A stretch of 44,110 bases of DNA, taken from contig NZ_LIQR01000008.1 in assembly GCF_001418575.1 (NCBI RefSeq), forward strand, positions 1 to 44,110. Reading direction: 5' to 3'. Shown piece by piece: positions 40,883 through 42,935 of this stretch. The notes under the pieces were generated by a model. It did not search any database and had not been told where the DNA came from. It was given only the letters and a program-made list of their open reading frames with translations. The DNA is from Peterkaempfera griseoplana (GTDB lineage Bacteria > Actinomycetota > Actinomycetes > Streptomycetales > Streptomycetaceae). The first letter of the stretch is position 1, and each line of letters begins with the position of its first letter. A program made the position numbers and the translations under genes.

Positions 40883-41377
40883 ATGCCGTTTCTCCGCCGC
40901 CGCTCCGGCACCCCCGCGGGCCCTGACTTCGATGTGCTCGCGATGGACCCCGGGGACTGGCCCGGCCACTTCGGAGCCGCCATCCTGGCCGGTGCCGACG
41001 GGACCTGCCAGGGGATCTTCCTGCGCTACGACCTCTTCGGCGGCCGCGGCCCCGCGATGCTGATCGGCAACCTGCCGGAGGGTTCCCCGGCCAGGGAGCC
41101 GGAGGACGGCGTTCCCTTCGAGGTCCGGCAGCTGCTCGCCGCCCTGGAGAACGACGAGCCGGTGAGCGTCGTCTCCACCGAGGACTTCCCGGTGCTGCTC
41201 GGCGACGACCTGCTGATCGTCAAGAAGGTCAAGGTCAGCGAGGAGAGGGTGACCTGCGCCCAGTTCGGCCGCAGCGACGGCGTCCAGGTCACCATCGCCT
41301 CCTGGGACCGGCCGATCTCGGACGACCTCTACCAGCTGCTCAAGCCGCTGCCGGCCGACATGTTCCAGCAGGGCTGA
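40883..41377 (+). CDS. Conserved actinobacterial protein of unknown function
   Basis: The 164-residue soluble protein begins MPFLRRRSGTPAGPDFDVLAMDPGDWPGHFGAAILAG. It alternates beta-rich and acidic stretches (IFLRYDLFGGRGPAMLIGNLPEGSPA, VRQLLAALENDEPVSVVSTEDFPVLLGDDLLIVKKVKV, given in parts) and ends SDDLYQLLKPLPADMFQQG. I recognise no catalytic motif, signal or membrane segment, and do not assign a function. No ribosome-binding sequence precedes ATG 40883, but a -10 box does, so it is probably leaderless. It stands alone between the DUF397 gene and the leader-peptide unit. Confidence 0.78.
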   Translation: MPFLRRRSGTPAGPDFDVLAMDPGDWPGHFGAAILAGADGTCQGIFLRYDLFGGRGPAMLIGNLPEGSPAREPEDGVPFEVRQLLAALENDEPVSVVSTEDFPVLLGDDLLIVKKVKVSEERVTCAQFGRSDGVQVTIASWDRPISDDLYQLLKPLPADMFQQG

Positions 41378-41445
41378 GCGCCCCCACGCCCCGCCGGGCG
41401 GCGGGCCGGGACCGTCGCCGGCGCGGCCCGGCCGTCGGACCGCGG

Positions 41446-41475
41446 TTGACGCCGCCGAAGCCCGGTTCGTAGATT
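41446..41475 (+). promoter_or_regulatory. Consensus promoter of the leader-peptide transcript
   Basis: TTGACG (41446-41451), an 18-bp spacer and TAGATT (41470-41475) give one of the best vegetative-type promoters in the window. The -10 box ends 6 nt before ATG 41482, so the transcript probably starts at the leader peptide's first codon. Confidence 0.75.
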
Positions 41476-41481
41476 CCCTCC

Positions 41482-41610
41482 ATGCCGTGCCGTCCGCTGC
41501 TGACCCGTCGCAGCCATGTCGACCTCCGGCGGACCGCCAGCGCAGTCTGTAGCGGCGCCGTGCGCGACCGCGCGGCGGCGCCCCTCGCCGCCGCGCGCCG
41601 TACGGCCTGA
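41482..41610 (+). CDS. Short regulatory leader peptide (LTRR-x-HVDL-xR type)
   Basis: This 42-codon frame opens with a leaderless ATG and encodes MPCRPLLTRRSHVDLRRTAS then AVC. The LLTRR-x-H-(V/I)-DL-x-R-x-(A/S)-S-A-(V/L/I)-C pattern is the signature of the small leader peptides that precede sulfur-assimilation and sulfonate-use genes in Streptomyces and relatives. There translation over Cys codons is thought to sense cysteine supply. The typical peptide stops shortly after SAVC, whereas this one runs 19 residues longer (Arg/Ala-rich) to TGA at 41608. It lies 137 bp before the acyl-CoA-dehydrogenase-like gene. The identification rests on the motif, the promoter and the spacing. Confidence 0.75.
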   Translation: MPCRPLLTRRSHVDLRRTASAVCSGAVRDRAAAPLAAARRTA

Positions 41611-41747
41611 CACCTCCGCCGAACCCTCCGCGCCCTCGCGCCGTCCCGCCCCGGCTGCGCCGCCCCGCCGTCGCCGCTCGGTGTCCGGTGCACCGCGCCC
41701 CCGCCCGCTGCCGCGCGCAGCGCCGCCACCGTTCCGGAGAACCGCAT

Positions 41748-42935
41748 ATGACGACCCTTCAGCACAGCGGCCCCACCACCGTCGCCGCCGCCATGGCCGC
41801 GCTGCCCCGCGTGGTCGACCTGCTGGCCGCCCGCGCGGACGAGCTGGACCGCGAGGGCACCTTCCCCTACCAGGGCATCGAGGCCGTCCATGAGGCCGGG
41901 CTGCTCACCCTCACCGTCGGCGCCCGCTACGGCGGGACGGCGGCCGGCCTCGCCGACACCGTCCGGGTGCTCGGCGAACTCGGCCGGGGCGACGCGTCGG
42001 TGGCGCTGGTCGCCGCCGGTACGCTGCTCCACCACGCCGCCCAGTCCCACCACGGCTTCTGGCCGGAGCCCCTCTACCGGGCGCTGCTGGAGGAGTCCCG
42101 CCGCGGGCCGGCCCTGGCCGCCACCCTGCGGTCGGAGCCCGCGGACGACACCGCCGGCCCCTCGGAGATCCCCGCCACCGTGGCCCGCCGCACCCCCGGC
42201 GGCTGGCTGCTGCACGGCCGCAAGACCCGCTGCACCGGCGCCGAGGCGCTCTCCTGGATGGCGGTCCCGGCCCGGACCGACGAGCCCGTGCCCCGGGTCG
42301 GGACCTTCCTGGTGCGCGGCGACGCCCCCGGGATCGAGATCGACCCCACCTGGGACCATCTGGGGCTGCGGGCCAGCGCCGGGCACGATGTGCTGCTGAA
42401 CGACGTGCTGGTACCCGAACGGGCCGCCGTCGGCCTGCGCGACCCGGGCATCCGTCCCGGAGCCGGCCAGGACGGCCCCGAGGCACAGGGTCCCGAGGCG
42501 CTCGCGGCGGCCTGGCGGAACCTGGCCCTGCCCGCCGTGCAGCTGGGCGCCGCCCGTGCCGCCCGCGACTGGCTGGTGGGCTTCCTGCACCGCCGGGACA
42601 CCTCCCGGGCACCGGCCCCCCGCGCCGCCCTCGGTGAGATCGAGATCCGGCTGGCCTGCGCCGAGGACCTGCTCACCGCCCTCGCCCAGCGGATCGACCA
42701 GGGCGATCCGGCAGCCGTCCCCCGTACCGGCCCCGCCGGGCTGCTCGCCGTACGCGCCGCGGTCTCCTCCGTGGAGCAGGCCCTGGCCCTGGCCGGCGAC
42801 CAGGGGCTCAGCCGCGCCAACCCCCTGGAGCGGCACCACCGGGACATCCTGTGCGGACGGACCCACTGCCCCCAGGAGGACGCGGTGCTCACCGGGGCCG
42901 GAAGCGCCGCCCTGGCCCGGGCGGCGTCCCGCTGA
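41748..42935 (+). CDS. Acyl-CoA dehydrogenase-like flavoprotein (probable sulfur-compound oxidoreductase)
   Basis: The 395-residue protein has the acyl-CoA dehydrogenase layout. An N-terminal helical domain (LPRVVDLLAARADELDREGTFPYQGIEAVHEAGLLTLTV, in parts) is followed by the YGGTAAGLADTVRVLGELGRGDASVALVAAG segment. The middle beta domain has GGWLLHGRKTRCTGAEALSWMAVPA and the C-terminal helical part ends ERHHRDILCGRTHCPQEDAV. The usual catalytic Glu position is not evident, which is common in the SfnB/DszC-like flavin-dependent relatives acting on sulfur compounds. The sulfur-type leader peptide just upstream supports that idea; it is an inference. ATG 41748 has CGGAGAA upstream. The substrate is unknown. 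Confidence 0.83.
   Translation: MTTLQHSGPTTVAAAMAALPRVVDLLAARADELDREGTFPYQGIEAVHEAGLLTLTVGARYGGTAAGLADTVRVLGELGRGDASVALVAAGTLLHHAAQSHHGFWPEPLYRALLEESRRGPALAATLRSEPADDTAGPSEIPATVARRTPGGWLLHGRKTRCTGAEALSWMAVPARTDEPVPRVGTFLVRGDAPGIEIDPTWDHLGLRASAGHDVLLNDVLVPERAAVGLRDPGIRPGAGQDGPEAQGPEALAAAWRNLALPAVQLGAARAARDWLVGFLHRRDTSRAPAPRAALGEIEIRLACAEDLLTALAQRIDQGDPAAVPRTGPAGLLAVRAAVSSVEQALALAGDQGLSRANPLERHHRDILCGRTHCPQEDAVLTGAGSAALARAASR

Follow-up and report, generated by a model that had tools for sequence, protein, structure and literature searches.

A putative cysteine-responsive leader peptide precedes a lone group D flavin-monooxygenase-like gene in Peterkaempfera griseoplana

A short open reading frame that sits directly behind a consensus promoter and in front of an acyl-CoA-dehydrogenase-like gene raises 2 linked questions: what such a leader would sense, and what kind of enzyme it would control. 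We examined this locus in a 44,110-nt stretch of P. griseoplana DNA (the window). The promoter (41446-41475, plus strand) comprises a -35 element, TTGACG (41446-41451), an 18-nt spacer and a -10 element, TAGATT (41470-41475), with 6 nt between its last base and the leader ATG at 41482, just as the initial annotation had it. It was the sole consensus promoter in 41300-41900, and the composite pattern TTGAC-N17-20-TANNNT-N5-8-ATG occurred once in the window and in 0 of 100 shuffles. The leader ORF (41482-41610, plus strand; 42 codons followed by TGA), identified from the ORF listing, a profile match and its conservation before orthologues, encodes MPCRPLLTRRSHVDLRRTASAVCSGAVRDRAAAPLAAARRTA. Since the promoter spacing, which is conserved in orthologues, fits a transcript start at the leader ATG, the ORF is probably leaderless. 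Profile match, paralogous and orthologous leaders and codon comparison delimit a conserved 19-residue core, PLLTRRSHVDLRRTASAVC (41494-41550, plus strand), that closes with the proposed sensing codon, a conserved Cys codon TGT (41548-41550, plus strand). Cys3 and Cys23 are the only cysteines in the peptide, and no Cys codons are contiguous. From sequence comparisons, we consider it probable that this is a cis-acting cysteine-responsive leader ORF of the NF042934 family, controlling one group D flavin-monooxygenase-like gene that would serve in organosulfur scavenging.

The peptide had been singled out for a signature of sulfur-gene leaders, and this identification held: core residues 5-23 scored 31.7 bits against the NCBIfam model NF042934 (cis_reg_atten, 'putative leader peptide'; cut-off 27). 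All 31 Streptomycetales genomes scanned contained leaders exceeding this cut-off, as did 5 of 119 genomes drawn from the phylum, 3 of these 5 belonging to the family of the window; none of 14 control genomes contained a match over the cut-off. The window leader scored 7.5 bits against NF042936, below its cut-off of 45, and had no listed match to NF042933, the model named for Ms5788A of Mycobacterium smegmatis. A second leader of the same genome, L078, which precedes a mercaptopyruvate-sulfurtransferase-like gene, passed NF042933 (47.4 bits, cut-off 45). A leader of mycobacterial type with a run of 6 Cys, from another genome of the class, MLTKRRAVDLCRVAGCCCCCCSC, which matches the mycobacterial model, scored 56.3 bits on NF042933 and 44.5 bits on NF042934; one family therefore joins single-Cys and poly-Cys leaders.

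In M. smegmatis, leaderless ORFs whose Cys codons are contiguous reportedly function as cysteine-dependent attenuators (PMC9031893 and PMC13236596, which cite Canestrari et al. 2020 for the cysteine-responsive leaderless ORFs of this species). The window leader resembles the Ms5788A family in a core pattern that ends in Cys, a probably leaderless layout and sulfur genes downstream; it differs in having one Cys at the conserved site rather than a run, and in its failure to match NF042933. With NF042934 it shares a core over the curated cut-off and a site before a sulfur-related gene, while departing from it in its length of 42 codons, the usual stop having been lost, and in that the gene it would control is a lone oxygenase-like one. 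The window leader adds a member to an already known kind of leader. A search of the open literature returned no study of streptomycete leaders. At L160 and L161, a mycobacterial-type poly-Cys leader is followed by a membrane-protein-like gene that reads like DUF4395 and then by a sulfurtransferase-like gene; the Cys run opens with TGT.

We searched upstream of orthologues for the same peptide, a search named beforehand as one that could overturn the reading, using relatives of the downstream protein taken from named genomes and from a set of 298 genomes belonging to the family. The peptide frame was conserved. Almost every close relative was preceded by the same leader, M[SP]CR-x-PLLTRR-[RS]-[HY]-[LV]-DLRRTASA-[AV]-C, after which came PGR or a similar ending and the stop codon, and leader, promoter and spacing were kept before nearly all Kitasatospora and Streptomyces orthologues, with the layout TTGACG ... 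TACAGT/TAAAGT, 7 nt, ATG. The leader was absent from that place in some relatives, among them the homologues of Azospirillum, Pseudomonas, Actinomadura, Dactylosporangium and Streptomyces Ru73. Gene order was likewise fixed, running from dihydroxyacetone-kinase-like genes through a DUF397 protein, a 181-aa protein, the leader and the oxygenase-like gene to an APH-like kinase on the opposite strand (the kinases were named by Pfam in the window and otherwise by reading of the sequences). The controlled gene had been described as lone and lacking a transporter beside it. This is correct for the window, in which it is flanked by the 181-aa protein, which has no family matches, and by the APH-like kinase on the other strand, with no transporter adjoining; orthologues occupy the same position. 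Since this order is fixed among relatives, the oxygenase gene is lone as a rule, not as an accident of one strain.

The initial annotation further noted that the peptide is about 19 residues longer than usual, and proposed that its mechanism may differ for this reason. The length was roughly right: 19 residues follow the conserved Cys in the window leader, compared to 1-3 in orthologues. The proposed consequence fared less well. The 19-codon extension (41551-41607, plus strand) is restricted to the window species and its sister (L009), which represent one genus. Between these 2 leaders, codons 1-23, which include the core, differ by 4 synonymous changes and 1 nonsynonymous change, while codons 24-42, the tail, differ by 4 synonymous and 9 nonsynonymous changes. 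This pattern suggests that the core is constrained at the peptide level and the tail is not. We rejected the tail as a functional element on these counts and on its confinement to one genus; it is best read as the result of a lost stop, with no function at the level of the peptide. Because it appears free of such constraint and is limited to one genus, the tail provides no argument for another mechanism.

A more informative feature was the choice of codon at the conserved Cys. Every one of the 14 leaders in this genome has TGT there, as do 57 of 58 distinct leader cores and 32 of 32 Cys-bearing leaders of an additional set drawn from the order and class, in which one leader reads TGA at the Cys position and a few loci gave no match. 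A stricter leader pattern yielded TGT in 9/9 and 26/26 distinct leaders. By comparison, TGT accounts for 138 of 1069 Cys codons in nearby ORFs (~13%) and for 7 of the 54 Cys codons found elsewhere in the leader frames, and GC3 of the remaining core codons is 0.86. The enrichment (Fisher p 8e-23) counts leaders as independent though relatives are not fully so; the p-values of 1e-8 and less share this assumption, and paralogues before different genes agree. Base pairing fails to explain the preference, since the bases 3' of TGT vary among paralogues. UGU may be decoded slowly by wobble. We regard this UGU signature as the most useful new lead from the locus. The sole TGC was found in L097, a leader-like ORF ~775 nt upstream of an oxygenase homologue, on the minus strand and pointing away from it. 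In L133, a leader-like core carries TGA in place of the Cys codon, and the peptide terminates there.

We next consider the RNA downstream of the Cys codon. Within the extended leader, 18 nt 3' of this codon, lies a perfect 12-bp hairpin, CGCGCGGCGGCG-CCCCT-CGCCGCCGCGCG (41569-41597, plus strand). Most orthologues possess a stable hairpin of other sequence that begins 12 nt beyond the Cys codon; when 36-nt windows were folded the mean z was lowest just after the Cys codon (-1.69; elsewhere -0.9 to 0.4). Two orthologues examined, L034 and L036, lacked a strong hairpin at this site. A hairpin placed 12-18 nt ahead could meet the ribosome entry site during decoding of UGU. Folding of the leader and UTR together was unexceptional (z -1.14), and single folds were no better than shuffles. 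Given this result, and a covariation term of -0.01 (almost nil) by RNAalifold for 20 orthologues, a conserved RNA switch was rejected. An Rfam search returned nothing relevant, with one weak chance match.

Sequestration of the ribosome binding site by the Cys codon was also considered. A 137-nt untranslated stretch (41611-41747, plus strand) separates the leader from the gene and contains the Shine-Dalgarno (SD) sequence GGAG (41736-41739, plus strand), recognized by sequence. In orthologues, the SD GCCCGGAGG has a potential pairing partner in TGT CCG GGC, and the duplex energy with the SD along leader and UTR was lowest at the Cys codon (mean -16.75 kcal/mol). This peak was absent in the window (rank 0.07) and its sister (0.83), and was not general among other leaders of the genome. 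Moreover, SD accessibility did not rise in a folding calculation in which the leader was masked up to and including the Cys codon (mean change -0.06 kcal/mol). Since the pairing was confined to orthologues and masking gave no release, this candidate was set aside.

Based on family membership and context, cysteine control of the gene is likely, and the model we favor for it is that ribosomes pause at UGU when cysteine runs short. Transcription would start at the leader ATG, as the promoter spacing suggests, and ribosomes would translate the LTRRxHVDLRRTASAVC segment, as its conservation suggests. When cysteine is plentiful, ribosomes would pass UGU and downstream expression would stay low. When Cys-tRNA is short, they would pause with UGU in the decoding center, possibly with help from the conserved nascent peptide and from the hairpin that lies 12-18 nt downstream; the paused ribosome may then alter the mRNA fold or keep transcription going, allowing expression of the oxygenase gene. 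An RNA switch joining pausing to expression is an unproven candidate, to which the masking calculation lent no support. Counting against this model are the presence of one Cys rather than a run at the conserved site, the lack of an intrinsic terminator, the absence of SD pairing at the Cys codon in the window and its sister, the unexceptional fold, the near-nil covariation, the masking result, and the score of the protein far below the SfnB cut-off (see below).

The same sensor might have a transcriptional output, in which Rho stops transcription within the 137-nt untranslated stretch, C-rich and G-poor, unless a ribosome is paused at UGU. GC skew is negative across 41550-41749 (-0.24 to -0.29), UTR length varies among orthologues, and no intrinsic terminator was found in 41300-41900; attenuators of S. 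lividans often lack an intrinsic terminator as well (PMC8079986). The peak of SD complementarity at the Cys codon of orthologues, in contrast, fits a translational switch better, and we view termination by Rho as possible but rather unlikely.

A comparable degree of doubt attaches to nascent-peptide arrest, in which the residues preceding Cys would act in the exit tunnel and the stall would be set by the peptide sequence, not by the supply of Cys-tRNA alone. Consistent with arrest, L-T-R-R and D-L-x-R-T-A-S-A are nearly invariant while their codons vary synonymously, and the core is common to leaders before unrelated genes. Conversely, the strict choice of UGU points to the codon, and codon hunger can apparently suffice, as suggested by the runs of Cys codons in mycobacterial relatives. 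The strictness of UGU offers a cheap way to tell codon-specific hunger from nascent-peptide arrest and to learn how one codon can sense. Extending the model of pausing at UGU to the order, we tentatively propose that Streptomycetales leaders may be genome-wide single-codon cysteine sensors, in which a nearly invariant UGU held against the GC3 bias, a conserved nascent peptide and a hairpin 12-18 nt ahead would let one codon suffice to sense Cys-tRNA charging, where mycobacterial leaders use runs of Cys codons.

We turn now to the enzyme that the leader would control. The downstream gene (41748-42935, plus strand) encodes a 395-aa protein for which Pfam, NCBIfam and a predicted structure all point to the acyl-CoA dehydrogenase fold. 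Pfam reported acyl-CoA dehydrogenase domains, and an AlphaFold2 model (pLDDT 86.1) was supported in this fold by Foldseek and VIA-align. The best NCBIfam match was SfnB (TIGR04022) at 84.9 bits, far below the equivalog cut-off of 430.9; the protein resembles SfnB and DszC-type group D flavin monooxygenases in fold, in this best match and in the uptake clusters of its homologues, but differs from SfnB in falling so far short of the cut-off. The closest solved structure was the flavin-containing monooxygenase 5z8t/5gj7 (Z 44.9, rmsd 3.0, 34% identity over 373 residues), for which no published function was found in the open literature. The next Foldseek matches were the flavin enzymes KijD3 and DnmZ, both nitrososynthases; beyond the first 2 structural matches, the Z values of monooxygenases and dehydrogenases tie.

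If the gene encoded an ordinary acyl-CoA dehydrogenase, its link to sulfur would be accidental. The Pfam domains and the shared fold agree with that explanation, but the catalytic Glu of the EGT motif (SCAD/MCAD type) is absent: RTHCPQED stands in its place, compared to YEGTSQ, GEGTAE and YEGTNQ in 3 dehydrogenases of the same genome, a test that leaves in dehydrogenases whose catalytic base lies in another helix. Together with the structural matches to a flavin monooxygenase and then to nitrososynthases, the homologue neighborhoods described below and the leader itself, this renders an ordinary dehydrogenase improbable. The initial description as a lone acyl-CoA-dehydrogenase-like flavoprotein therefore stands for the fold, the Pfam domains and the lone position, but the missing Glu and the best structural match indicate that the product is better read, on the predicted structure, as a group D flavin monooxygenase. 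In Acinetobacter, monooxygenases of this group oxidize dimethyl sulfide, using FMNH2 from a shared reductase (PMC13352529). Because such enzymes draw on a shared reductase, a lone oxygenase gene is reasonable; here the supply of FMNH2 would fall to a reductase from another locus, for example SsuE, whose gene is itself preceded by a leader of this family.

The genomic company of the leader family supports a role in sulfur metabolism. The genome contains about 14 such leaders, and, in agreement with the expectation that they precede sulfur genes, the genes 3' of them include those for SsuE (215.5 bits, cut-off 164), MetY (771 bits, cut-off 703), a sulfite/nitrite-reductase-like protein, a mercaptopyruvate-sulfurtransferase-like protein (rhodanese), an NtaA/DmoA-like monooxygenase, a TauD-like dioxygenase, an SsuA-like binding protein and a luciferase-like monooxygenase; names other than SsuE and MetY are best matches below cut-offs. 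Homologues of the controlled gene at 40-54% identity adjoin SBP, ABC and luciferase-like monooxygenase genes, and paralogues at 45-57% identity lie in operon-like clusters with ABC, luciferase-like monooxygenase and flavin-reductase-like genes. The gene appears to fit a sulfur-scavenging oxygenase. The earlier reading of a sulfur-scavenging oxidoreductase is supported by the leader family, by these clusters with transporters and monooxygenases and by related leaders upstream of the paralogous operons, with the amendment that the enzyme would be an oxygenase rather than a dehydrogenase. With these findings, the sulfur genes under leaders of this kind in relatives of streptomycetes gain a lone oxygenase-like member. 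The leader points to an organosulfur function where automatic annotation would label the product an acyl-CoA dehydrogenase. That the peptide instead acts in trans as a small protein, with no cis element, would agree with its conservation at the peptide level but is very improbable, given about 14 divergent copies each before a different gene, a freely varying tail, and mycobacterial relatives that reportedly act in cis.

A second leader class, M[LP]xTHP[GAN]VVCR[YF]VD[FYL]xRTSS[AD]LC, was observed 6-11 kb upstream of paralogous oxygenase clusters (L102, L109, L113-L130); the one member scored reached 16.8 bits, under the NF042934 cut-off of 27. Lastly, a leader-like ORF with a sub-cut-off score of 20.5 bits (L084) overlaps or lies just 5' of a ROK-type-regulator-like gene.
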